Below the pieces are notes generated by a model. It ran no database searches. It had not been told where the DNA came from and worked only from the letters and a program-made list of their open reading frames with translations. Positions 9,369-30,606 of a DNA stretch of 64,000 bases are shown piece after piece (positions within the stretch are counted from its first letter, which is position 1; each line of letters begins with the position of its first letter). A program made the position numbers and the translations under genes. The DNA comes from SAR324 cluster bacterium (GTDB lineage: Bacteria; SAR324; NAC60-12). Where the stretch lies: NCBI GenBank assembly GCA_015231825.1, contig JADGAV010000001.1, positions 186,001 to 250,000 of the forward strand, written 5' to 3'.

Positions 9369-10091
9369 TCAGGGACAAGCTTTTTTTGACTTCAGAGGAC
9401 ATTGACCTCCGATCGCAGAGGTGAGCGTTTTGGAGAGTCGGGCTTTATCTTCAATGATGATTTGATGCTGATCGTAATCCAGAATTTTTTGTTTCTTGAA
9501 AAGGCTCATGGATCGTATTGCCGTTTCAATGCTGGTTCCAACGAGATCTGCCAGTTCCTGACGGGTAATTGCGATATTCAGTCGGGCCCGGTTACCTTGA
9601 GTAGTGCCGTACTGGTCGATAAAATCAAGCAAGACCTTTGCAATTCGCTGATGCACCGTCATGGCAGCCATTTGAGTCAGCTTTTCTGCAAAATATATGA
9701 CGCGCTGGCCAAGAAATTCGAGGAGATGCAATCCTAGTTCTGGATGTCTTTTGATCATGGAAATCAGGGTATTTCGTTCCAGTTTGAACAAGGTTGACGA
9801 GGTCATGGTAACCGCTGAGGCCGGATAGAGGAAACCTCCAATCGCGGGGGCTTCTGCAACAATTTGCCCGGGATCATGAACAGCAAACAACAATTCTTTG
9901 CCATACTCTGTGCTGTGTACCATTTTGATCCGACCCTGCACGACGCCGTAAAGATAGTTCGGCATGTCCCCTTGATGGAAGACGGTATCTCGACGTTCGA
10001 ATGTCTGAAGTTCAACGTGTTCATTGAGTTCGTCAAGTATATGGTTGGGAAATTTTTTCAAACTCTTGAAATCCAACAAAACATTGACCAT
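9369..10091 (-). CDS. Crp/Fnr-family transcriptional regulator
   Basis: N-terminal cNMP-binding-like fold (FERRDTVFHQGDMPNYLYGVVQGRIKM) and HTH TRQELADLVGTSIETAIRSMSLFKKQKIL; no N-terminal Fnr-type Cys cluster. Confidence 0.85.
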   Translation of the reverse strand: MVNVLLDFKSLKKFPNHILDELNEHVELQTFERRDTVFHQGDMPNYLYGVVQGRIKMVHSTEYGKELLFAVHDPGQIVAEAPAIGGFLYPASAVTMTSSTLFKLERNTLISMIKRHPELGLHLLEFLGQRVIYFAEKLTQMAAMTVHQRIAKVLLDFIDQYGTTQGNRARLNIAITRQELADLVGTSIETAIRSMSLFKKQKILDYDQHQIIIEDKARLSKTLTSAIGGQCPLKSKKACP

Positions 10092-11872: not shown

Positions 11873-12376
11873 GTGCCACCTTTGAAAAATGCTTCGTATG
11901 GTTCTTTGATGAGTTTTTTTTTAAAAGCAATTTTAGGAATCATGTTCTCTATAATTATTGTGCTGATGGTTCGCTCGGGGGAAGAAAAAGAGCAAGTGAG
12001 GACAAAAATACTAGAGAACATTGATAAAGCGCCTGTCGATTCATTCAATTTTGAAGATTTAAGTCATTCTTTCAACCCAAAGAACACCGTTTCAAATGCT
12101 GGAGGAAAGCCAACAGCCACTTTGGCAAGAGGGAAAATCATTCAATGGGTACTGGATGTTTATGAGATGAAGGGAAATCCGGATTATTACCAGATTGATA
12201 TTGCACCCAAAGAAGAAATTGCTGGAATCAACCTGTTTGTCTACCCACGAACCGGACAAGAAGAACAATATGTGCAAATGTTGAAAGAGGGATCATCAAT
12301 CAACATTAAAGGCATGGTTCAAAAAGTTACAAAAGAAAAAATTACAATTAATCCGGCAATAATCTTAATGCCATGA
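11873..12376 (+). CDS. Membrane-anchored hypothetical protein (possible OB-fold-like periplasmic domain)
   Basis: One N-terminal TM; starts 3 nt after the previous stop; C-terminal GSSINIKGMVQKVTKEKITINPA. Confidence 0.5.
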   Translation: MPPLKNASYGSLMSFFLKAILGIMFSIIIVLMVRSGEEKEQVRTKILENIDKAPVDSFNFEDLSHSFNPKNTVSNAGGKPTATLARGKIIQWVLDVYEMKGNPDYYQIDIAPKEEIAGINLFVYPRTGQEEQYVQMLKEGSSINIKGMVQKVTKEKITINPAIILMP

Positions 12377-12523: not shown

Positions 12524-12676
12524 ATGACTGAAGAGAATGACCGGGAGGTGCATCCAATGCAAAAACTCCTGGATAATGATTTTCTGCTATTAGCAATTCA
12601 TGTGGGCATTTCGATGCTTTCATATACTGTGTGGGGGCTGATCGATTTAATGAGCCTTCCTATCTTTGGTTCATAA
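12524..12676 (+). CDS. Small single-TM protein (50 aa), putative HCO accessory subunit
   Basis: ATG after AAGGAG; MTEENDREVHPMQKLLDNDFLLLAIHVGISMLSYTVWGLIDLMSLPIFGS*; absent from the ORF track. Confidence 0.55.
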   Translation: MTEENDREVHPMQKLLDNDFLLLAIHVGISMLSYTVWGLIDLMSLPIFGS

Positions 12677-12690
12677 GGAAGGAGGATGAA

Positions 12691-13266
12691 ATGAGTGTTT
12701 TTGTACCGGAAAAGTATTGGTGGAAACCATTGGGGCCGGATGAAAGGCTTTGGCTGTGGGTATGTGTCGCAACCGCGGTTGTCTTATCATTAATGATGCC
12801 GCTTTACAATTTGCTGGGGCACCAAAACCCAAGTCATGAATCTTATCAGATCACACCAGAGAAATTCAATGAACTGACAGAAAAATTTGTCTCGGAAAAC
12901 ACGGTTCGTGAGGAAATAGTCAAACAAAAATTTGGAGCGACCGAAATAGAGAAAAAAATTCCGGTGGTTCGTCCAGCGCTTGGAGTCAAAGATGTTTATC
13001 TACGAGCGAGAGCTTGGGAATTTTATCCTATTCTTGAATTGGAAGAAGGACGCGAGTATCGGGTTCATATGTCGTCGATGGACTATCAGCATGGTTTTTC
13101 CCTGCAACCACAAAACATCAACTTCCAAATCCTTGCGGGGTATGATTTGGTAGTGACTTTGGTTCCACGCGAATCCGGTGAATTCTATGTCATTTGCAAT
13201 GAGTATTGCGCCATTGGACACCACACGATGATTGGAAAAATCATTGTCAAAAATAAAGAGGAGTAA
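12691..13266 (+). CDS. Cytochrome c oxidase subunit II-like protein with CuA site
   Basis: RBS AAGGAGG before ATG 12691; one TM; YQHGFS and CNEYCAIGHHTM match the CuA pattern H...CxxxCxxxHxxM. Confidence 0.85.
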   Translation: MSVFVPEKYWWKPLGPDERLWLWVCVATAVVLSLMMPLYNLLGHQNPSHESYQITPEKFNELTEKFVSENTVREEIVKQKFGATEIEKKIPVVRPALGVKDVYLRARAWEFYPILELEEGREYRVHMSSMDYQHGFSLQPQNINFQILAGYDLVVTLVPRESGEFYVICNEYCAIGHHTMIGKIIVKNKEE

Positions 13267-13271
13267 CCATT

Positions 13272-14861
13272 ATGGCATCAAATTATGCTTCTGAATTCAG
13301 AACCTGTGGCACAACAGGACTGAAGGTACACTTACCAGCAGAACGGTTATTTTACGTCAATGCCGTCACTGCTGTTGTTGCATTACTTGTCGGTGGGATT
13401 ATGGCCATTCTCATCGCGCTTACCCGTTGGCCGGCAGTGCATCTTTTGCCTGCTGATTTGTTTTATCGTTTTCTGACTGCTCATGGCTTGAATATGCTTG
13501 TCTTCTGGATTGTATTCTTTGAAATGGCGGGATTATTGTTTGCGTCTACAGCAGTTTTGGGAAGTCGTTTACCTGCCCCCTGGTTCGGGTGGTTGAATTT
13601 CTGTCTGATGCTGGTAGGCGCTCTCATCACGAATTATATGGTTTTTATGGGACAGGCGGATGTTTTGTTTACCTCTTATCCTCCTCTCAAAGCACATCCT
13701 CACTATTATTTAGGAATCATTTTATTTGCGGTGGGAACTCTACTGGCGTGTTTTCATTTCATGGCAACTCTAGTCATTGCCAAGAAAGAAGGCTATCACA
13801 AAGGAAGTTATCCGTTGTTCACCTTCGGGATCCTGATCGCGGTGATATTGGCGATCTTTACTCTGTTGATGGGGGCAGCAACCTATCTTCCTACCTGGCT
13901 TTGGGCAATGGGTCTGATTGACGGAATCAATCCCGCCATGTACCGGCTCGGGTTTTGGGGATTTGGTCATTCTGCCCAGCAAATTAACTTAGCCGCAATG
14001 GTTTCGATCTGGTATCTGATTGGAACTTTAAGCGTGGGTGCAGTCCCCATCAATGAAAAATTTAGCCGGGGAGCCTTTCTCTTGTATTTGTTAGGGATCA
14101 ATGTGGCTTCGGTTCATCACCTTCTCGTCGATCCAGGATTAAGTGCAACTTACCGCATTTTCAACACAAGCTACATTCTTTATGCCGCGACAATTGGCAG
14201 TATGATTCACGCTTTCTCTATTCCGGCTGCGATTGAAGTAGCACAACGTGCCAAGGGGTTTACAAATGGTATGTTCGAGTGGTTGACAAAGGCACCTTGG
14301 GGCAATCCTGCTTTTGCGGGAATGGCCTTATCCATCGTTATTTTTGGTTTTGGTGGTGGTGTGACTGGAGTTACGCAGGGGGTTGAACAAATCAACATTA
14401 TGTCGCACAACACTTTGCGAATTCCTGGACATTTTCATGTGACTGTCGTGGGAGGGACAACACTGGCGTTTATGGCCCTGACTTTCTATGTTTTACCTTT
14501 GGTCATGCGTCGTGAATTGATTGGAAAATCCTTTGCAAAATACCAACCCTGGATTTTTGCCATTGGGATCTGCATTATGTCTACTGGAATGTCTTTTGCC
14601 GGAATTCTTGGAGTTCCTCGACGACACTATGATGTCACTTTTTCTTCTGCCATTTTTCAAGTCCCCTTTAGCGCGACAGCAACAACGATGCTTGGTCTTT
14701 TAGGATTGGGGGCCATCATCGCGTTTACCGGTTTGCTGATTTTTTGTTTGATTGCCGCATTGACGGCGTTTTTTGGGAAACGCATTCCCCCCAACATGGA
14801 ATTGCATCACCCTCCACATATTGGAGAAGACTCCGCATCGGTGGCACCCGCTCAAGCCTGA
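13272..14861 (+). CDS. Heme-copper oxidoreductase subunit I (B-type/NOR-like candidate)
   Basis: FLTAHGLNM, FWGFGHSAQQIN, VASVHHLLVDPG, RIPGHFHVTVVGGTTLAFM: six core His ligands present. Confidence 0.85.
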   Translation: MASNYASEFRTCGTTGLKVHLPAERLFYVNAVTAVVALLVGGIMAILIALTRWPAVHLLPADLFYRFLTAHGLNMLVFWIVFFEMAGLLFASTAVLGSRLPAPWFGWLNFCLMLVGALITNYMVFMGQADVLFTSYPPLKAHPHYYLGIILFAVGTLLACFHFMATLVIAKKEGYHKGSYPLFTFGILIAVILAIFTLLMGAATYLPTWLWAMGLIDGINPAMYRLGFWGFGHSAQQINLAAMVSIWYLIGTLSVGAVPINEKFSRGAFLLYLLGINVASVHHLLVDPGLSATYRIFNTSYILYAATIGSMIHAFSIPAAIEVAQRAKGFTNGMFEWLTKAPWGNPAFAGMALSIVIFGFGGGVTGVTQGVEQINIMSHNTLRIPGHFHVTVVGGTTLAFMALTFYVLPLVMRRELIGKSFAKYQPWIFAIGICIMSTGMSFAGILGVPRRHYDVTFSSAIFQVPFSATATTMLGLLGLGAIIAFTGLLIFCLIAALTAFFGKRIPPNMELHHPPHIGEDSASVAPAQA

Positions 14862-14928
14862 TGATGTCATTCATTGTCCCTTCAGGTTGCCATCATCCTG
14901 CAGGGAACATTTCAATTGAGGAAATTCT

Positions 14929-15057
14929 ATGAAAAAAGAAAAAGAAAAATTTCATGCACCAGGGACAGTCGTGCTCGTTTTTATTTGGTTTATCTGGTTT
15001 ATCATCCTCTATACCACAAACTGGTTGGCACTAAGTGAAAACTGGTTCTTGAGATAA
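14929..15057 (+). CDS. Small single-TM protein (42 aa), CoxIIa-like
   Basis: MKKEKEKFHAPGTVVLVFIWFIWFIILYTTNWLALSENWFLR*; follows subunit I; resembles oxidase subunit IIa (APGT..VL...W). Confidence 0.55.
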   Translation: MKKEKEKFHAPGTVVLVFIWFIWFIILYTTNWLALSENWFLR

Positions 15058-15090: not shown

Positions 15091-16038
15091 ATGTCAAAAT
15101 ATTTGATAACTGCCAACGTTAAAGTGGTTGGGGAGACGGAAGAAGGTTCCTTGTGGAATGTAGTCAAACTATGTTGCAGCATGACCAAGCCCAGAATTGT
15201 CATCTCCATCTCTTTGTCAGCGTTAATTGGATTCGTCTTACACCCAAATTTTTTGTCATTTCCTTTCTGGATGTCTTCGGTTTTGGTTCTCTCAGTTGCA
15301 CTAACAACTGCAGGGGGAGCTGTCCTGAACCATTATTTGGAGCGCGAATCGGATAAGTTTATGGAACGTACTAAAAATCGTCCATTGCCTTCCGGTAAGC
15401 TTCGGGATCCACAACAATCATTTTGGTTTGGAATTTCTCTTGCTGGAATCGGGATTTTTTTGTCTTACCAGTTTTTAGGAACCGCATCCGCGGTATATTT
15501 GTTTCTGGGAGCTTTTTCTTATGTTGTGATTTACACCGCCTGGTTGAAACATCGCAGCATTTGGAATGTTCCTGTTGGCGGAATATGCGGTACATTTGCA
15601 GTTTTTGTTGGCAGCAGTGTGGGAGGTGGAGCATTGACCCTTGAAAGTTGTCTTTTTGGGATGATGCTCCATTTTTGGAGCCCGGCTCATTTTTGGAACT
15701 TCGCAGTTTATCAACGAAATGATTACCGCAAAGCCGGAATACCCCAGCTTCCGGAAGTTGTTGGGATTGTGCCGACAAATTGCTGGATTGCTGCCCATAC
15801 CATTGCAGTTATTTTCTGTTCCGCTGGATTGGCATTCTGGGGAAGTCCCGGTTGGCTCTTTGGGGGAATTGCTTTGATAAGCGGCTTCCTGTTTCTATTT
15901 TTTAATCTTTTGAATATCGTTGATCCTTCCGATGCGCTTTCACGAAAAAATTTCATCTTTTCTCTGATCTATTTAACTGCTTTGTTCCTGGGGATTGTCG
16001 TCGATTTTTATTTCCAATTCTTTTTGGGATTAAACTAA
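15091..16038 (+). CDS. ctaB: Protoheme IX farnesyltransferase (heme O synthase)
   Basis: MTKPRIV, NHYLERESDKFMERTKNRPLPSGKL, DYRKAGIPQLPEVVG UbiA-type motifs. Confidence 0.92.
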   Translation: MSKYLITANVKVVGETEEGSLWNVVKLCCSMTKPRIVISISLSALIGFVLHPNFLSFPFWMSSVLVLSVALTTAGGAVLNHYLERESDKFMERTKNRPLPSGKLRDPQQSFWFGISLAGIGIFLSYQFLGTASAVYLFLGAFSYVVIYTAWLKHRSIWNVPVGGICGTFAVFVGSSVGGGALTLESCLFGMMLHFWSPAHFWNFAVYQRNDYRKAGIPQLPEVVGIVPTNCWIAAHTIAVIFCSAGLAFWGSPGWLFGGIALISGFLFLFFNLLNIVDPSDALSRKNFIFSLIYLTALFLGIVVDFYFQFFLGLN

Positions 16039-16453: not shown

Positions 16454-16485
16454 TCGTCTTCCCGATTGATCACTAAATTTTGAAT

Positions 16486-18669
16486 ATGATTCGTCAACAA
16501 TTACTTGTTCCAAGTCTTTACCAACGATGGCATCTTCTTTGGCACCGGGTTTTTTTGGCGATTGAATCCCATTTCAACCGTTTGTTTCCTGAAAAACACA
16601 ATCCATTCTATTTTCTTGGCACTCTCAGCATATTCAATTTACTGATTCTGGTGGTGACAGGGATTTACATGTTTATATACTATTCCCCCTCTGTAGAAAC
16701 GGTTTACGAATCAGTTAAATATGTCAATGATGAAGCATTTTTAGGAGGTTTGGTCAGGAGTGTTCATCAATATTCTTCTGACTTGATGATCCTGCTTGTT
16801 GTTTTGCATATGATTCGAGTGTTTGCGCAGGAAAAATACCGGAAATATCGTTGGATTGCCTGGGTTTCCGGAGTCGTGATGCTGTTTTTTACCATTCTGG
16901 AAGGAGTGATCGGACATATCATGGCATGGAATGAACGTTCCCAGTTCATTGTCGTGGAAACTTCCAAATTGATTGCCGCATTAAAAGTATTCGGTCAGGA
17001 TTTACCACGGGCCTTTTCTGCGGAGTCCTTGCTCAGCACCTGGATAATGTGGATCCTGTTGGCACTCCATATTTTGATTCCCATTGCCTTTATTTTTTTG
17101 ATTTATATTCATCTCTCCAGGATTTCTCGTTCCCGTCTTCTTCCGACGCGATTGCTGATGCTCTCCACAGTTGGGTTTTTGATTGTTTTCAGCCTCTTGT
17201 TTCCTGTCCGCATCCTGGAAAAAGCGGATCTGATGAAGATTCCTCAAATCGAAGAATTGGACTGGTTTTATTTATTCATGACACCTTACATGGAAAACTC
17301 CAATCCTTATTTAGTTTGGCTGGGAACATTAGCCCTTTTCCTCTTTTTTACCGGAGCACCATGGTATCGAAAACCTTTGGAAGTAGATTCTGCAGTCCGT
17401 GATTTACCTAACTGCACTGGTTGTGCAGCTTGTGCAAAAGATTGTCCTTATGAAGCGATTTACATGCGATCTCGAAGCGATGAAAAAAAATTCAAAATGG
17501 AATCGGTGGTGATTGAAAGCCGATGTGCGGGGTGTGGCATTTGTGTTGGTGCCTGTGCTTTTGGAGCAATGGATCTGACGAAATTGCGGACAGACACTTA
17601 TGAAAAGGAATTGGAGTTGCTTTTTGTCTCCTCAGAGGCCAAACAAAAAGCCCCCTACCTGGGGATATTCTGCCAAAAAAGTCTCACGGATCCGAAAATT
17701 TTTGATTTTGAAAACTCATCCCTGCTTGAGGAACCTCGCCTCAAAATCCTTTCTGTCCCCTGTGCAGGGATGGTGGGACCCAGCTTTATCAAGTCTGCCT
17801 TGATAAAAGGAGTCGAAGGAATACTGATAGCGGCGTGTCGCACCCATGATTGTCATTATCGTGAAGGCAATTTATGGCTGCAGCAGCGTTTGAACGGAAA
17901 ACGGGTCCCCAAACTTCATTTAAAAGAGGACGTGAAACCGGTTGTCGCTTTGTCGTTCAGCAGGGTCGAAAGTCAAGGCTTCATTACCCGTGCGAAAACG
18001 TTGCTGGATTCCTGGCAAGGAGATTCTTTTTTGCCCAATAAACGAGGGCAATATGAAACGATCCGTTTCAGCAATCCGTTGAAATCTGCTCTTGTGTTGA
18101 CCTGTGTTTTCGGATTATTCCTTTGTTTTTATATTTGGGGCACACTGGATCCCTGGAAACAGGTGCCTGAAGCTTTGAGGGATACAGGGATGCTCAAGAT
18201 AAATTTTTTCCACCTGAGTGATATGGTTTCCTGCGACATGACAAATCTCAGGGAAAGTACGGATGAAGTCCGTTCGCGGGTGAATCAAATGACGCGCAAA
18301 GACAATGTTTCCGCAAAAGGCCAGGAACAAGAACTTTCTTCCAATTTAGTTTCGGCGATTCTCTGTCCGCGGGAACGTGTCCCGATCCGGTTGCAAATCA
18401 TGGTGGATGGAAAAATGGCTCTCCAAAAATCATTTGCTCCAGCGGGTCTCAGTAATGATGGTTTGACCTATGTTGCGCATGAAATGAAAATATCAAGCGG
18501 AACCCACAAGATTCAGGTCCAAATGCTGGATTCCAACGATCCCACTCGAAAACAGGGAATCGACTTTATAACAGATATTGACGTACAGGATAATCAAATT
18601 GTGTTCATCGATTTCAATGAGGAACAGGACAAATTTTATATTCGACAACGTTCAAGGGAGGACTTATGA
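16486..18669 (+). CDS. Cytochrome b - 2x[4Fe-4S] ferredoxin - MvhD-like fusion protein with extra C-terminal TM and soluble domain
   Basis: Two H-x13-H pairs (HQYSSDLMILLVVLH; HILIPIAFIFLIYIH); CTGCAACAKDCP and CAGCGICVGACAFG; VPCAGMVGPSFIKSALIKGVEGILIAACRTHDCHYREGN. Confidence 0.85.
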   Translation: MIRQQLLVPSLYQRWHLLWHRVFLAIESHFNRLFPEKHNPFYFLGTLSIFNLLILVVTGIYMFIYYSPSVETVYESVKYVNDEAFLGGLVRSVHQYSSDLMILLVVLHMIRVFAQEKYRKYRWIAWVSGVVMLFFTILEGVIGHIMAWNERSQFIVVETSKLIAALKVFGQDLPRAFSAESLLSTWIMWILLALHILIPIAFIFLIYIHLSRISRSRLLPTRLLMLSTVGFLIVFSLLFPVRILEKADLMKIPQIEELDWFYLFMTPYMENSNPYLVWLGTLALFLFFTGAPWYRKPLEVDSAVRDLPNCTGCAACAKDCPYEAIYMRSRSDEKKFKMESVVIESRCAGCGICVGACAFGAMDLTKLRTDTYEKELELLFVSSEAKQKAPYLGIFCQKSLTDPKIFDFENSSLLEEPRLKILSVPCAGMVGPSFIKSALIKGVEGILIAACRTHDCHYREGNLWLQQRLNGKRVPKLHLKEDVKPVVALSFSRVESQGFITRAKTLLDSWQGDSFLPNKRGQYETIRFSNPLKSALVLTCVFGLFLCFYIWGTLDPWKQVPEALRDTGMLKINFFHLSDMVSCDMTNLRESTDEVRSRVNQMTRKDNVSAKGQEQELSSNLVSAILCPRERVPIRLQIMVDGKMALQKSFAPAGLSNDGLTYVAHEMKISSGTHKIQVQMLDSNDPTRKQGIDFITDIDVQDNQIVFIDFNEEQDKFYIRQRSREDL

Positions 18670-19362: not shown

Positions 19363-19560
19363 ATGAATTTTTCTTCCAAATATATGATTTTTTGGATTGC
19401 TATTGTGACAATCGCCTTTGTCGTTGATTATATTGGGCTGCTGCAACGTGCAGAGCTGGATGGGAAATCTTTTTTCATTGGCCTCATTGTTGGATTTTTG
19501 GTGATGAAATTTGCTCCAAATGTTCAGAACTCTGAAACTGAAGGGAAGGAGAAGGAATGA
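19363..19560 (+). CDS. Small membrane protein (two predicted TM)
   Basis: MNFSSKYMIFWIAIVTIAFVVDYIGLLQRAELDGKSFFIGLIVGFLVMKFAPN...; ATGA overlap with the Sco gene. Confidence 0.5.
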   Translation: MNFSSKYMIFWIAIVTIAFVVDYIGLLQRAELDGKSFFIGLIVGFLVMKFAPNVQNSETEGKEKE

Positions 19561-20204
19561 TGCGAGCTGCTTTTATTCGAATCATTGCTATTGGAATAGT
19601 GGTTGCCGCCCCTTTTATTTTGTGGTGGCAATGGAAAAATCAACAATCATCCGGTTCCTTCGATATCCGGGCCGCGTTTGAGGGAACTCCAGTTGTGGCT
19701 CCTCGGCTAAAACCAGTCAATATTTACGAATTTGATCAAACCTGGATCACACAGAATAATCAACGCGTACAACTGCAATCTTTTCGTGGAAAACCGGCTT
19801 TGGTTGGGTTTATTTATACCCAATGCCCCACTGCTTGTTCTGTGATGACTTTGAAAATGAAAGAAGTGGAAAACTGGTTGCCGGCGACGGTTAGAGAGCG
19901 GATGCACTTTTTAAGTTTCAGCATAGACCCGGAGCGGGATACTCCTGAACACTTAAAAGAATACGCATTCCGCTTCCAAAGCACCGGATCTCAATGGCAA
20001 TTTATGGCCAGTGAGATTCGCCAGGTCAAAGAATTGGCGAAAGCATTTTCCTTCTACTTTAAAAAAGAAGGGGAGTTTTTTGTGCACTCGGATATGATGG
20101 CTGTGGTTGATCAAAATGGGACGATTCGTCAACAGTTTTGGGGCAGTCCGGCACCTGATGAAATTGCAGCGGCATTCAAAAAACTGGATGAGGCTGAAAG
20201 ATGA
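19557..20204 (+). CDS. SCO1/SenC/PrrC-family copper chaperone
   Basis: GFIYTQCPTACSVMTLKM (CxxxC), SFSIDPERDTPEHLKEYA. Confidence 0.88.
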   Translation: MMRAAFIRIIAIGIVVAAPFILWWQWKNQQSSGSFDIRAAFEGTPVVAPRLKPVNIYEFDQTWITQNNQRVQLQSFRGKPALVGFIYTQCPTACSVMTLKMKEVENWLPATVRERMHFLSFSIDPERDTPEHLKEYAFRFQSTGSQWQFMASEIRQVKELAKAFSFYFKKEGEFFVHSDMMAVVDQNGTIRQQFWGSPAPDEIAAAFKKLDEAER

Positions 20205-21003: not shown

Positions 21004-22200
21004 TCAACCATAAGTTCCGTCTATTCTTGGATGGATGAGAATGGGAAAGAAAATGAACAAAAAAGCGCCAAATGCAGAGAGCCAAAATAGTTGAGAGAGG
21101 ATGATCCATAGCCGATAGAGGGTCGGGTCCAGCATCGGAAAAATAATTCGAATCAAGGCAGCAAAGAGGAGCAGGGCAAAAATCGGGAACAGCGAACGAG
21201 GAGGATCAAAGACATTACGACCGGTGTGACCCAGTGATACCCGTGCCATCATCCCGAAGCTTATCATCCCGATTCCTCCGAAGCCGAAGGCGTGGACTGC
21301 CAGAAATGGGGAAAATCCGTAGAGAACAGAGAGGGTTTTCAGGGCAAATCCGAGTGTTATCATTGCGTAGCCAAGGAAAAGTATCCAGAGCAGTGGTTTT
21401 TTCCAGATTCCTAAAGTGTGCCAACCGGCAAGCCGGATTCCATGAAGTAAAAACAGTGATCCTGCCAGGCCAGCACTGAAATTCGAAAAAGGAGCTGTCA
21501 GCTCGGTCAGCCAGTATATTAGAAAAAGGGGGAGAATTGAAATATCAAGCCATTTCCAATTAAGCAATTCGACCGGACTGTCTACTCCTCGGGCGATAAA
21601 AAGGGGGATCACTCTTCTTCCCATGATGAACACCAGGGCCAGAATCAAATAAAAACCGGAATACAATCCATCGTGCGTTCCGGTTTGAAGAATCCCGAGG
21701 ATCCCCAGATAAAATACGATGTTGCTGCCGAGCAGTAAAAGCAATATTCCCACAATCCCGAGATTTCTCCAATTTCCGGATTTGCAGATGGGAAAAGCAA
21801 GAGAAAGAATTAGTAGAAAAAGAAACATGATATCAAAGAATGCCACGCTCTCGAGTGGAACCAATGATCCGAAAAACGGAAGCACACGAGCCGCGAGCCA
21901 GCATAAAAAAAGCCCCAGCAGGGGGTAGCCATGGAGGGTTTGTACTTCGGTCCAGTTTTTCACTGCCGTTAAAAGAAACCCTGCAATAACAGCAATACAA
22001 TATCCAAAAATCATCTCGTGTGCATGCCATGTGACGGGGGCAAAATGTGAAAATTGCAGATCACAGAATCCAATGTAGATACCCATCCATAAAAGGATTG
22101 ATAAAAATGCGAAACTTGCAGCCCCAAGAAAAAAAGGGCGAAATCCTAAATTTAAAAAAGCATATTTACGAGGGCTTGTTTTTTGATCAGTTCCGGTCAT
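21004..22200 (-). CDS. nnrS: NnrS family protein
   Basis: LGFRPFFLGAASFA, TWHAHEMIFGY, AVIAGFLLTAVKNWT; polytopic. Confidence 0.88.
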   Translation of the reverse strand: MTGTDQKTSPRKYAFLNLGFRPFFLGAASFAFLSILLWMGIYIGFCDLQFSHFAPVTWHAHEMIFGYCIAVIAGFLLTAVKNWTEVQTLHGYPLLGLFLCWLAARVLPFFGSLVPLESVAFFDIMFLFLLILSLAFPICKSGNWRNLGIVGILLLLLGSNIVFYLGILGILQTGTHDGLYSGFYLILALVFIMGRRVIPLFIARGVDSPVELLNWKWLDISILPLFLIYWLTELTAPFSNFSAGLAGSLFLLHGIRLAGWHTLGIWKKPLLWILFLGYAMITLGFALKTLSVLYGFSPFLAVHAFGFGGIGMISFGMMARVSLGHTGRNVFDPPRSLFPIFALLLFAALIRIIFPMLDPTLYRLWIILSQLFWLSAFGAFLFIFFPILIHPRIDGTYG

Positions 22201-22727: not shown

Positions 22728-23195
22728 ATGACCTTAAATAGCCAAAGCATCACGGAAGTCATGAGTCATGAACATTCAGTTTGTGATCAGCTTTTTGAAG
22801 ATGCTGAAATAGCGCTGGCAGATGGGCGAAACGAGGCAGGAGCAAAGCTCGTTCGTTCTTTTGCTGCACACTTGAATCACCATTTTGAAATGGAGGAAAT
22901 TATCTTGTTTCCTGCTTTTGAAGCAGTGACTGGAATGGCGGGAGGACCAACAGCGGTGATGAGAGCGGAGCATCAGCAAATCAGGGGACTGCTGGATCAA
23001 TTGTCTCAAGAATTGGATGCAGAAAATTTTGAAGAGGTCATTGCAATTGGAGAGACCTTGAACATTTTAATTCAGCAGCACAATATGAAAGAAGAAAACA
23101 TGCTCTACCCGATGAGCGATACCCAACTTGCTGAAAATAGGAATGATATCCTTGGAAAATTGAAATCCTTTGAGGGCAGGCAGCATGGAGCATGA
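22728..23195 (+). CDS. Hemerythrin-domain protein
   Basis: MSHEHSVCDQLFEDAE, HLNHHFEMEEIILFPAFE, EHQQIRGLLDQL, HNMKEENMLYPMSD. Confidence 0.85.
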   Translation: MTLNSQSITEVMSHEHSVCDQLFEDAEIALADGRNEAGAKLVRSFAAHLNHHFEMEEIILFPAFEAVTGMAGGPTAVMRAEHQQIRGLLDQLSQELDAENFEEVIAIGETLNILIQQHNMKEENMLYPMSDTQLAENRNDILGKLKSFEGRQHGA

Positions 23196-23433
23196 AATTT
23201 TAAAAACCCGACAGATTGCATTGATTGACTGTCGTGAAATGCTGGCACCAGAGCCTATGATTGCGGTATTGGCGGCAGTTGAAAAAATGAATATTAATGA
23301 GGCCTTGTTGATGCAGCATCGTCAGAAACCGGTCAATCTCTTTCCAAAACTGGAAGACAGAGGACTCCAATATTACCTTGAAGAAGAAAGTGATGGTTCG
23401 ATTCAATTGCTGATCTGGCAGGAAGCGGCATGA
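23185..23433 (+). CDS. DUF2249 domain protein
   Basis: IDCREMLAPEPMIAVLAAVEKMNINEALLMQHRQKPVNLFPKLEDRGL. Confidence 0.75.
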   Translation: MEHEILKTRQIALIDCREMLAPEPMIAVLAAVEKMNINEALLMQHRQKPVNLFPKLEDRGLQYYLEEESDGSIQLLIWQEAA

Positions 23434-24698
23434 AAACGGTCGGTCTCAGTCTTGATCAAGCACCTCCTGAAGACATTCCGATAAGGTTCTTTCTAACTGC
23501 CCCTCTATTTGGTTCTCTCGCGGGTTGTTTGATGCTTTATCAGGGACAGCAGCTATTTCTCTCCGAATGGCTTTTAGAAACAGTTGCTTTCACTCATTTG
23601 CTCACCCTGGGATGGCTTGCCATGATTATGATCGGGGCCAGCTATCAGATGATTTTGGTGCTGGTGGGAGGAAAAGTTCCATTTCTCAGCCTTTCCCGTT
23701 TTGTGCATTTGGGGCTCGCTGGAGGAATCCTGGGATTTGCAGGAGGGTTGATCAATAATCATTCTACCAGTTTCTTTGCCAGCGCTATTGTCCTGTTGGG
23801 GGCTTTAAGCATTTTCGTGATTCAGATCAGCTGGTCGCTCTTTCGGGTGGAAGCCAACCGTCCCACCGTACTGGCCATGCGTATTTCTATTCTTTCATTG
23901 GCACTGACGATAATCCTGGGAGGAATGCTTATCGGGCAAATTGCAGGCTGGTGGAGGGTTCCTTTTGATCGGAGTCTTTTGAAAGGAATCCATCTGACTT
24001 TGGGGTTGCTCGGATGGGTCACTTGTTTGGTGGTTGGTGTCGGATTTCATGTCATTCCGATGTTTTATCTAGCCCGCCCGTTTCCGGTGCGAACTGCCTG
24101 GTGGATTATTTATTTCTTATTGTTGAGCCTGCTGCTCTACCCGGTTGTCAGCTTTTTAGCACTCGATACGAAATGGAAGATGCTGGCTTTTTTGCCCGCA
24201 GGGGTCGGACTTGGGATGTTTCTGATAACCCTGATCGATTTGTTTCGAAAAAGAAGGAGGAAATCAGTCGACACAACGTTGCGGTTCTGGCAGTTTGGAT
24301 TGCTCAATCTGTTTTTCTCTCTTCCGATTTGCCTGGTATTTATTTGGAATTCCAAGCCTGCACTCGGCTTTCTGGGTGTTCTTCTAGTGATCGGATTTGC
24401 GTTGTCTGTCACGAATGGAATGCTTTACAAAATCGTTCCTTTTTTGATTTGGCTTCATCGTTTCAGCCCGCTGCTGGGAAAAGTAAGAGTCCCCTTGATG
24501 AAAGATATTGTCGCAGACGCTTCCGCTCGTCGTCAGTGGCGGGTTTTTGTTCCTGCGATCCTTCTTTTGGCAGCGGGCATTGTCGGGCAGCTGGACTTCC
24601 TTGTTCGCTTTGCAGGGGGGATGTGGACTGCTGCTTCATGGATGCTGTTCATTATTCTTTATAAGGCCAGCCGAATGCGCCCTCCAGAAATTCGCTGA
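23430..24698 (+). CDS. Polytopic membrane protein, NnrS/HCO-superfamily-like
   Basis: FTHLLTLGWLAMIMIGASYQMILVLVGG, IHLTLGLLGWVTCLVVGVGFHVIPMF; overlaps the DUF2249 gene by 4 nt. Confidence 0.6.
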   Translation: MKTVGLSLDQAPPEDIPIRFFLTAPLFGSLAGCLMLYQGQQLFLSEWLLETVAFTHLLTLGWLAMIMIGASYQMILVLVGGKVPFLSLSRFVHLGLAGGILGFAGGLINNHSTSFFASAIVLLGALSIFVIQISWSLFRVEANRPTVLAMRISILSLALTIILGGMLIGQIAGWWRVPFDRSLLKGIHLTLGLLGWVTCLVVGVGFHVIPMFYLARPFPVRTAWWIIYFLLLSLLLYPVVSFLALDTKWKMLAFLPAGVGLGMFLITLIDLFRKRRRKSVDTTLRFWQFGLLNLFFSLPICLVFIWNSKPALGFLGVLLVIGFALSVTNGMLYKIVPFLIWLHRFSPLLGKVRVPLMKDIVADASARRQWRVFVPAILLLAAGIVGQLDFLVRFAGGMWTAASWMLFIILYKASRMRPPEIR

Positions 24699-26415: not shown

Positions 26416-27228
26416 TCATGCCGCTTCGTTTTGCGCAAGTTTTGCCAGACGATCTTTACCTAAAATCGCGCAGCCCAATGCTCCCACAAATTGCGCCAGA
26501 TCACCTTGCGGGACATTGACTTCGGCGTCTAAACTTTCTTTGACGACATTTGCCATTTTTTCCCAGCGCAAGATTCCGCCAATCAGGGTATATTCCGGTT
26601 CCGCACGGGTTCGTCTCATCAATTGCACGGAACGTTGTGTGAGCGATAAAATCGAACCGTACATAATATCTTCAGGCGGCACTCCTTCTGAAAGGTGACT
26701 GATCACTTCTGATTCCGCAAAAACAGCGCATACTCCCGAGATGGGCACTTCATTCTTGGAAAGGGATAGCAGAGAATCGATATCTTCTGTGGTATAGCCC
26801 ATATAGCGGACAGTTTTTTCTAAAAAAGCTCCTGTGCCGGCAGCACACTTGTCATTCAGCCGAAAAGTCACGACCTTGGCTTTTTCATCCAGTTTACTGA
26901 CCTTCATCGTTTGACCCCCGATGTCGAGCACCGTGCGGGTATTGGGAAAGAGGAACTTTGACCCGCGCGCTGATGCAGTGAGGTCGGTCACCTGAAGATC
27001 ACGAAAAGAAACCTGGTGACGCCCGTATCCTGTGGTGATCGTGTAGGCCATATCGCTCATTTTAAGTCCGGCCGCTGAAGTCGTTTTTTCGGCAACTTTT
27101 TGTGCCGATTCCTGCAGTTTGGACCCGGTTTGTCCCATCTGATGATTGACAATATTTAATTCCTCATCCAGAATAACGGCCTTGGTGTAAGTTGAACCCA
27201 CATCGAGTCCAAGGGTGTACTGTTTCAT
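26416..27228 (-). CDS. BadF/BadG/BcrA/BcrD ATPase-family CoA-enzyme activase subunit
   Basis: [66 protein letters not shown]. Confidence 0.88.
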
Positions 27229-28037
27229 GCGACCTCCTTCTTGGCAGGTTTACGGCTTGCGAAAATGTGATCCAACGCAAATAAAGCTGCTCCGAGAGCA
27301 CCCATAAAATGAGATTCTTCACTCACGTTCACTTTTTTCCCCATTCCTTCTTCCAGTGATTTGATCATCCCGGTATTTCTGGCGACGCCTCCGGTGAATG
27401 TGATTTGGTCCTCAATCCCGACTCTCCGCAATAAACCGATGGACCGGGAAGCAATGGAAAGATGCACGCCCCACAAAATATCTTCGACTTTTTTGCCTTT
27501 TCCCAACCATGCGAGGATTTCTGATTCGGCAAAAACGGTACAGGTGGTGCTGATCCTTACCGGTTTGTCGGAATCAAGGGCGGTGGGGCCGAGCTCATCC
27601 AGGGGGATATCCAGTGCACTGGATGCAGCACCGAGAAAGCGTCCGGTCCCCGCAGCACATTTATCGTTCATGCAGAAATCAACAATTTCTCCATCCGGAC
27701 TGACGCGGATCGCTTTGCTGTCCTGTCCTCCCATATCGATGACGGTTCGCGTATCCGGAAACATATGAACGGCTCCGCGTCCATGGCAGCTGATCTCTGT
27801 GATTTGAGTATTCCCAAAAGTCACTTTGTAGCGGCCGTAGCCTGTTCCGACAACATATTCCACATCTTCATCAGGAATTTTGCCCATATCCAGGGCCTTG
27901 TTGAATGAATTTTGGGCAGCAGCCATCACATTGGCACCCGTATCAATTAATGATCGCCCAACAATTTCTCCTTTTTCGTTGATGACAACGGCTTTCGTCT
28001 GGGTAGAACCCACATCTACTCCTGCTGCATATGCCAT
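27225..28037 (-). CDS. BadF/BadG/BcrA/BcrD ATPase-family CoA-enzyme activase subunit (second)
   Basis: [68 protein letters not shown]. Confidence 0.9.
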
Positions 28038-28078
28038 AGTTTCTCCTATTTTAGTCTATAATTGAAGGAAATGATTGC

Positions 28079-29383
28079 TTATGATGCTTTAGCTGTCTGT
28101 CTTCTGGAAATTAACCCTTCAAAGAAGGCATCGACTCTATTTTTCATTTGCGCTTCGGTGACCACACGCTGATCCATCATATCCGACTCCAGAAACAGGG
28201 TGGCCAGGTTCTTGTTGTGTTTCATCAGATGTCTCCTTCCGTCGGCCAATCCGGTAGAAACTGTACGGCAGCTTTTGATCGGATGATATACGACACCGTC
28301 AATATGAAAGGAATCTGCCAATTCGACGGTTGCCGTTTGATGATGAAACATACTGTCCATCGCGTCACGGACGCTGATCAGCAAGCCTTCTGCCAGGCTG
28401 TCGATAGGATCTTCCAAATTGTATTCAAAACCAAGATTACTGCCTCCGGAAGCAAACCAAAGGTAGGTTGAGTGGACGAAGACGCCTCCCCAATCGGTGA
28501 AAAATTCATTAAAACGTCGAAAAATCGGATAACAGGGAACCCCGACAAAGAACAAGCGGAACTGTTCTTCAGTGAGCGTGCCGATTCCATTGGCGGATTT
28601 GAATTCCATCTCTTCGGCCAGTCGCGTGAAATAGTCACTTCCAACTTTGGTTCCACGGAATCCGTTGGCCATACCGAGAAAGATGGTCCCGTCGGTCAAT
28701 GCATTGAAGAGCGCGGGGCGGCTTTTGTTGAGTTCCAAAACGGTTTTCCAGCCTCGGGCCATTCCGTTCGAAAATTCAAGGACTTCGCGGAGTTTATCAA
28801 TATCAAACTTCTGCCCGGAGACTTTTTCACAGAGGGTGATCAATTCCTTGAGCTGTTCGACCACATATTTTTTGTCCAGTTCAAACCCTGGATCTCCCTG
28901 CCATGTTTGAGTTCCTTCTGCGCGGGTCCCTGGAATATCAACAGTAAAAATAGGAATATCGTACATCCTTTCCCAGATTTCAGCCCATTTGATATAGGTG
29001 TTGCAGGCATTGGTTAAAACTGCGATTTTCGGTTTGGGAATCGTTCCCATCGGGTGTTTCCCTCCCTGCAGCTGCATGGCGACATCAGCTTTGACGTAGC
29101 CGCAAATATCAGGAGAATAGCCATAATCTTCTGCGATATTCAAAAATCCCGGGGCCACCCTTCGAACTGCAGTTTGAAGAGAATTTATCTCGGGAAATAC
29201 AACCGGAAAGTCAAAGGACTTCAGTATTTCATTGAGGCTTCCCATGACAAAGACATAGGCCCCTCCGCTTTCCTGGACTGCAGGACTGGATAAGTCTTGA
29301 AACCACTGCCTGAATAAATTGGCGCCTTCTTTATTGCCACGACCCACAAGCTCTTCTGGCGTGGTCTGAATCGTTTCACTCAT
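28079..29383 (-). CDS. Benzoyl-CoA reductase/2-hydroxyacyl-CoA dehydratase family subunit (BcrB/BzdO-like)
   Basis: PEINSLQTAVRR, VLTNACNTYIKWAEIWERMYDIPIFTVDIPGTR, HPIKSCRTVSTG. Confidence 0.85.
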   Translation of the reverse strand: MSETIQTTPEELVGRGNKEGANLFRQWFQDLSSPAVQESGGAYVFVMGSLNEILKSFDFPVVFPEINSLQTAVRRVAPGFLNIAEDYGYSPDICGYVKADVAMQLQGGKHPMGTIPKPKIAVLTNACNTYIKWAEIWERMYDIPIFTVDIPGTRAEGTQTWQGDPGFELDKKYVVEQLKELITLCEKVSGQKFDIDKLREVLEFSNGMARGWKTVLELNKSRPALFNALTDGTIFLGMANGFRGTKVGSDYFTRLAEEMEFKSANGIGTLTEEQFRLFFVGVPCYPIFRRFNEFFTDWGGVFVHSTYLWFASGGSNLGFEYNLEDPIDSLAEGLLISVRDAMDSMFHHQTATVELADSFHIDGVVYHPIKSCRTVSTGLADGRRHLMKHNKNLATLFLESDMMDQRVVTEAQMKNRVDAFFEGLISRRQTAKAS

Positions 29384-29391
29384 AGTTCCTC

Positions 29392-30561
29392 CTAACCAAA
29401 AAGAATGTTTTCTACAAATGTTTCAAGCTGGGTTTCCAGATTGTCGAAGCTTGTCTGGTTCTCCTCAAATTCGTTGATAAAATAGGGAATATCTTCCTTC
29501 TCCAGCATTTTGCTGTAGGTAACTTGTTCCTCCAATCCCGGTTCGCACATTTTTGCCGCGGTGATGATGACTGCTGCCGCTCTTGAATCCTTAATGCGCT
29601 CGAGCAGCATCTTTTCTTTGGGTTTTCTCAAATCATGCTGGACCGGACTGTAGGTTGACTTTTCAATATAGGCATCAGCAAGCTTGCTCAGGGGATTTCC
29701 TTCAGTGGACACATCTTCAAGAAACCAGCGCAGTCCAATCATGAGGTCATCGTCCACCAGGTAACAGGAACGTTCAATGGTCTGGATCAGATCGGCCGGA
29801 GGAAGTTCACAGAAACCTCCTTCAAAAACCACGCGCATTTTATCGAGTTCCTTGCCCGTACCATTTTTGATTCTGGGTAACATCGCTTTCATGAACTCGT
29901 TGTATTCTTCTCTGGGGATAAATCCTGCTAAAAGCGTCAAACAGTAAGCTTGATCTGCAGAAATCAGCCAGGGGGTGTCCCGTTTGATTGCGTAAAGTTC
30001 ACGCATCAGCGCCCGCCCTTCATTGTATACTGAAATTGAATTGCGCAGTGCTTCATCAGTGATCGGAGTTCCTGTAATGGATTCCAGGTCGAGCTTCAAT
30101 CGTTCGTATTCATTCTGCAGATAAGTCGCGGAATACTTGGAATTTGGATTTTGCGGCAAGTAAAGAATCTGGCATTTATAAGGAAAATTACGACCCCATA
30201 TCGCGCCGAGATTTCTTGCTGAATCGCAAATTGGATGAGTAACAAACATTTCCATCTCCACCTTCTTGGTGAGAGCGAGTTCCAAAGAGGTTTTGATAAT
30301 TGAACAGAGGTATGAACCAAAGTGGGATTCTGCTTCCATTCCCGGCACTTGCGCCCCACAGATTTTAACCGGGAGCATTCCGGCAGCATGAACAATTTCT
30401 TCTGGAAAGTAGACTTGAAAATGTCCTACGACTTTTCCTCCGGCTTTTCGCCACTGATTCACTGTAGGGTAATCCGGATCTTCGATCAATTCACGGCAGA
30501 GACTGAAAATTTCGTCCATCGGTTTGTCTCGCCAAGATTCCAGTAAATTTGATGATTCCAT
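29392..30561 (-). CDS. Benzoyl-CoA reductase/2-hydroxyacyl-CoA dehydratase family subunit (BcrC/BzdN-like)
   Basis: [75 protein letters not shown]. Confidence 0.88.
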
Positions 30562-30606
30562 TACCTTCTCTCCTTCAGGTGGGTTTGCAAGTATCAATGA
30601 AAAACG

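Follow-up and report, generated by a model that had tools for sequence, protein, structure and literature searches.

Positions 12,524 to 15,057 of the window, the 64,000-nucleotide stretch of SAR324 cluster bacterium DNA analyzed here, very probably encode an eNOR, i.e., a heme-copper nitric oxide reductase that contains CuA and is related to the B family. First, subunit I belongs to a Gln-bearing clade that stands apart from the O2-reducing ba3 oxidases. Second, a published rule defines eNOR by this Gln. Third, the genome carries nosZ and no other candidate NO reductase (NOR). All three support the original prediction of a heme-copper oxidoreductase (HCO) of the NO-reductase type; that prediction left the family unplaced, but the Gln rule and the clade allow it to be named as eNOR. 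The enzyme kind itself is known, being attributed in PMC8756737 and PMC11388526 to Hemp and Gennis 2008 and Murali et al. 2024, and the SAR324 gene is a further member of it. The features of the region are listed in Table 1.

Table 1. Features in and around the putative eNOR genes of the window. Locus counts refer to a survey of 84 eNOR loci, many of them incomplete, and are lower bounds.
Feature	Position	Strand	Evidence
Crp/FNR-family regulator, divergent	9369..10091	-	
CuB-less heme-copper subunit-I paralogue, 470 aa	10458..11870	+	H62, H213, H344 and H346 kept; helix-VII His-His absent
Small anchored OB-fold-like protein after the CuB-less paralogue	11873..12376	+	Weak tRNA_anti-like match, 20 bits, under the cut-off
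One-helix ORF, 50 aa, upstream of subunit II	12524..12676	+	Found in 62/84 eNOR loci
Putative eNOR subunit II, membrane-anchored cupredoxin, CuA motif CNEYCAIGHHTM	12691..13266	+	Homologue in 83/84 eNOR loci
Putative eNOR subunit I, Gln237 replacing the cross-linked Tyr	13272..14861	+	PF00115, 217 bits; best PDB matches are ba3 oxidases
One-helix ORF, 42 aa, after subunit I	14929..15057	+	Found in 51/84 eNOR loci
CtaB/CyoE-like heme prenyltransferase (UbiA family)	15091..16038	+	PF01040; at least 26/84 eNOR loci
Fused cytochrome b / 4Fe-4S / FlpD-like protein	16480..18669	+	Homologue in at least 62/84 eNOR loci
SCO1/SenC copper chaperone	19557..20204	+	PF02630; homologue in at least 59/84 eNOR loci
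NnrS	21004..22200	-	PF05940, 335 bits
Hemerythrin HHE protein	22728..23195	+	PF01814

Subunit I, a real open frame of 529 amino acids, was aligned with the ba3 oxidase of T. thermophilus (the stretch given by the PDB search match) and with 82 relatives from about 15 phyla and from Thermus, Thermomicrobium and Defluviimonas plasmids. All heme and CuB histidines named in the original prediction are present, namely H71 (ba3 H72), H233, H282, H283, H387 (H384) and H389 (H386). The equivalents of ba3 H72, H233, H282, H283 and H384 occur in 82/82 relatives, and that of H386 is kept in 78 rows of the alignment, the window protein among them. At the position of ba3 Tyr237, which forms the His-Tyr cross-link in B-family O2 reductases, the window protein carries Q237, and Gln is found there in every one of the 82 relatives. 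The preceding residue, Q236, is likewise Gln in 82/82, while the B family has Val. Since both residues are invariant, neither chance nor sequencing error accounts for them. The Tyr of C-family O2 reductases, six residues before the helix-VII His-His, is replaced by Ile276 (Ile or Leu in 82/82), and no other eNOR-specific Tyr was seen at known cross-link positions in the 82 relatives. Thus, the predicted Gln at the cross-linked-Tyr position and the predicted lack of a cbb3-type Tyr were both borne out. Along the K-path, Tyr248 is kept in all 82 relatives, Thr312 is His in all 82, Tyr244 is replaced by Val or Ile, Ser261 is Asn or Ser and mostly kept, and Thr315 is mostly kept (Ser/Thr). The structure model of subunit I had a mean pLDDT of 80.7, with residues 363-387 under 50 and a weak helix VI, and its fold matched B-family oxidases with a TM of about 0.8.

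Relatives of subunit I with 52-86% identity were found in a species genome scan in Spirochaetota, Nitrospirota, Chloroflexota, Gemmatimonadota, Bdellovibrionota, Myxococcota, Pseudomonadota, Aquificota and others, and a tblastn search of plasmids added those of Thermus thermophilus, Thermomicrobium roseum and Defluviimonas. All of them carry the motif GHxxQQ. In a careful tree, the Gln proteins formed one side of a branch with support of 100/98, and the Tyr-bearing B-family oxidases were supported with 99/98; the T. thermophilus, T. roseum and Defluviimonas homologues served in this tree as proxies, sNOR, gNOR, nNOR, bNOR and literature-named eNOR references not being part of it. Thus, the protein falls outside the characterized O2-reducing oxidase clades. 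The cNOR NorB of a relative (L027) lay far from it.

The conserved Gln at the Tyr site is the mark by which eNOR is told from oxygen reductases and the remaining NORs (PMC8756737 Table A4). The window protein shares with eNOR this Gln, a CuA-bearing subunit II encoded directly upstream, a B-family-like subunit I and a wide phylum range; its K-type residues, kept in part, may be a further common trait. It differs from described eNOR in its SAR324-like host, a lineage that was not found as a named eNOR host in the literature searched, in the nosZ-bearing genome without nir, and in the adjoining CuB-less paralogue. With the B-family ba3 oxidase of T. thermophilus it has in common the fold, all heme and CuB ligands, a CuA subunit II and a small extra single-helix ORF, but it belongs to a separate clade and has Gln for Tyr237, Val for Tyr244 and His for Thr312. 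Like sNOR, bNOR (CuANOR) and gNOR, which by their descriptions also have a cupredoxin subunit II, it is a Tyr-less, B-family-related HCO, but these enzymes have Asn or Asp where it has Gln. The same reaction is proposed as for cNOR and qNOR, which contain FeB, lack CuA and carry Glu at the site.

That the protein is instead an O2-reducing B-family oxidase that lost its Tyr, serving as a high-affinity terminal oxidase, appears improbable. Its fold and most of its ligands are those of a ba3 oxidase, an oxidase role was argued for the related sNOR of Nitrosomonas (PMC6967387), and Tyr-lacking HCOs might retain some O2 reactivity. However, the Gln does not vary across a large and ancient clade distinct from ba3, the genome already encodes aa3 and cbb3 oxidases, and eNOR, itself B-family related, is counted as a biochemically characterized NO reductase (PMC11388526). 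Assignment to a different Tyr-less NOR family, whether a named one (sNOR, gNOR, nNOR, bNOR) or not, or to a separate Gln family is more improbable still: although clade membership was judged through proxies rather than literature-named eNOR proteins, the published residues are Asn for sNOR and CuANOR, Asp for gNOR, Glu for cNOR/qNOR and Gln for eNOR alone (PMC8756737 Table A4), and the eNOR carriers named there (Thermus, Chloroflexota, Alpha-, Beta- and Gammaproteobacteria) fall in the same clade.

The eNOR reading agrees with the makeup of the locus. The C-terminal end of subunit II, CNEYCAIGHHTM, holds a complete CxExCxxxHxxM motif, so that the CuA site was correctly predicted to be intact, and this motif was found in at least 78 of the 84 surveyed loci. 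Subunit II starts with the ATG at 12691, which follows AAGGAGG, rather than with the GTG at 12631. Two small ORFs absent from the original prediction flank the subunit genes. In Thermus, Thermomicrobium and Defluviimonas, too, the gene for subunit II is preceded by one annotated as 'hypothetical'. The downstream ORF, without a Pfam assignment, would compare in size and location to subunit IIa of B-family oxidases, which likewise has a single helix.

Further downstream, the heme prenyltransferase gene occupies the same place in the Defluviimonas and T. roseum loci. In Defluviimonas, the small ORF is followed by the genes for subunits II and I, heme o synthase, SCO, cytochrome b, a hypothetical protein and hemerythrin, an order much like that of the window. 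The fused cytochrome b protein is a probable electron-entry partner of eNOR; its C-terminal part past about residue 500 has no assigned domain. For the small protein encoded after the paralogue, no homologue was found in the 84 loci. A search for FNR boxes gave 16 matches against 16.8 expected, none of them upstream of 10458. The hemerythrin gene is adjoined by one for a 422-aa multi-helix membrane protein without Pfam match (23430-24698), and the 87-aa ORF preceding the latter (23170-23433) is probably the DUF2249 protein mentioned in the original prediction. Positions 26416-30597 encode two subunits like those of HGD-D type dehydratases or benzoyl-CoA reductases and two BadF/BadG-type ATPases, 27225-28037 looking like the second of these; the set recalls ATP-dependent aromatic-ring reduction or 2-hydroxyacyl-CoA dehydration.

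The gene upstream of the eNOR genes encodes a second heme-copper subunit-I protein, which matched COX1 weakly (53.5 bits). A PDB search with its sequence gave no match, and HCOs were found by fold comparison only: the model (pLDDT 89, pTM 0.90) matched ba3-type and other HCO subunits I best, with TM up to 0.76. In 26 homologues from SAR324, Nitrospirota, Pseudomonadota, Myxococcota, Balneolota, Chloroflexota, Rokubacteria, Aquificota and others, H62, H213, H344 and H346 as well as W209, G212 and Q216 (WGxGHxxQ) are invariant or nearly so. The helix-VII His-His ligands of CuB are absent from 26/26, which leaves the helix-VI His alone of the three CuB histidines. Tyr237, Tyr248 and the H376/N377 pair of ba3 are missing as well. 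Since both sets of heme ligands are kept and the helix-VII His-His is gone, the paralogue can probably bind two hemes and no CuB. It has a Gln three residues past the helix-VI His in common with eNOR only. In the tree, it adjoined eNOR on longer, faster evolving branches, with a split from the A and B families supported by 99/97. Topology tests rejected a forced grouping of eNOR with the B family (p = 0.010) and did not reject one of the paralogue with the B family (p = 0.135). Thus, the paralogue is likely, from these sequence comparisons, a sister family of eNOR, the latter test leaving the relationship short of settled.

The occurrence of the paralogue followed that of eNOR. Among SAR324 relatives, it was present in 7/10 eNOR genomes and in 0/30 others (Fisher p = 6e-6, ignoring shared ancestry). 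In a second sample, i.e., 398 genomes from the order of a betaproteobacterial eNOR carrier, 31 had both genes, 3 the paralogue only, 2 eNOR only and 362 neither (p = 2e-40, again ignoring shared ancestry); equivalently, 31/33 eNOR genomes carried it in comparison with 3/365 others. In 29 of the 31 pairs, the two genes shared a contig and were 1.8-9.0 kb apart. Across phyla, the paralogue is not universal: it was found within the fetched stretch at 22/84 eNOR loci, and 14 of 43 further eNOR genomes carry it elsewhere (cut-off E of about 1e-66). A plasmid search with a betaproteobacterial CuB-less protein gave no match. No description of the paralogue was found in the literature searched, to which the main eNOR paper (Murali 2024) did not belong, so it may already be known.

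Its distribution suggests an accessory role together with eNOR. We consider it an even call that the paralogue founds a CuB-less family, probably sister to eNOR, and acts as a dedicated non-catalytic diheme partner of eNOR, be it as second membrane subunit, electron relay, NO-binding subunit or assembly factor. That it is an ordinary decaying duplicate unconnected to eNOR would fit the lost catalytic ligands and the faster evolution, but it is unlikely given the heme ligands and WGxGHxxQ conserved across homologues from many phyla and the strong co-occurrence with eNOR. One copy elsewhere (L130/L149, on C5 of G032/G061, apparently one genome) has an in-frame TAG in the matched stretch and is possibly decaying.

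The window genome, which belongs to a marine bacterium of the SAR324 type and is 93.5% complete, contains a full clade-II NosZ (845.6 bits; cut-off of 625). No NirS was found in it, and no NirK or NarG scored over the cut-off. Only four proteins of the COX1 family are encoded: an aa3 and a cbb3 oxidase, eNOR and the CuB-less paralogue. A qNOR or cNOR was considered and rejected, the only match of the 700-aa class being a fused cbb3 CcoNO, and the genome holds no NOR candidate besides eNOR. Because nosZ is present and nirK, nirS, narG and another NOR were not found, eNOR is most likely the sole NO reductase of this genome and would pass N2O to NosZ. Since no NO-forming nitrite reductase was detected at this completeness, NO would have to be supplied externally or by a source that escaped detection. 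In a survey of SAR324 genomes, nosZ was found in one and nirK in some (PMC8364033).

From the sequence, ligands, clade and gene context, we infer the following electron path, substrate and proton route. Electrons would enter at CuA of subunit II and pass to the low-spin heme (His71/His389) and then to the site formed by the high-spin heme (His387) and CuB (His233, His282, His283), where two NO would be reduced to N2O. Gln237 takes the place of the His-Tyr cofactor, which is required in four-electron O2 cleavage and dispensable in two-electron NO reduction. Protons may enter from the cytoplasm via a K-type channel changed in part, with Tyr248 retained, Val in place of Tyr244 and His in place of Thr312, and the N2O formed would be consumed by the clade-II NosZ of the same genome. 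A proton channel was also proposed for eNOR in the literature (PMC10734462).

The closest relatives of subunit I outside SAR324 are from Spirochaetota, at best 66-69% identical. A second family of the SAR324 order (e.g., G026/L072) has an eNOR only 57-58% identical to that of the window, which branches with Kiritimatiellota, Bdellovibrionota and Gemmatimonadota. This distance and placement may be explained by movement of the eNOR gene between lineages, which is probable. A genome of the same family as the window genome, without eNOR (G022, locus L019), carries a heme-copper protein in which the Tyr position is taken by Asn (GHTLVN), possibly another NOR-type enzyme.

Genes for eNOR are routinely annotated as cytochrome c oxidases, and the capacity for N2O production is therefore undercounted. 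With eNOR and NosZ but no nitrite reductase, a cell of this SAR324-like lineage would act as a sink for NO and N2O that others produce. That the paralogue tracks eNOR across phyla raises the question of whether eNOR activity or assembly depends on a heme-bearing pseudo-oxidase. If it does act as a partner, part of the eNOR clade would use a pair of catalytic enzyme and pseudo-enzyme that is missing from denitrification models.
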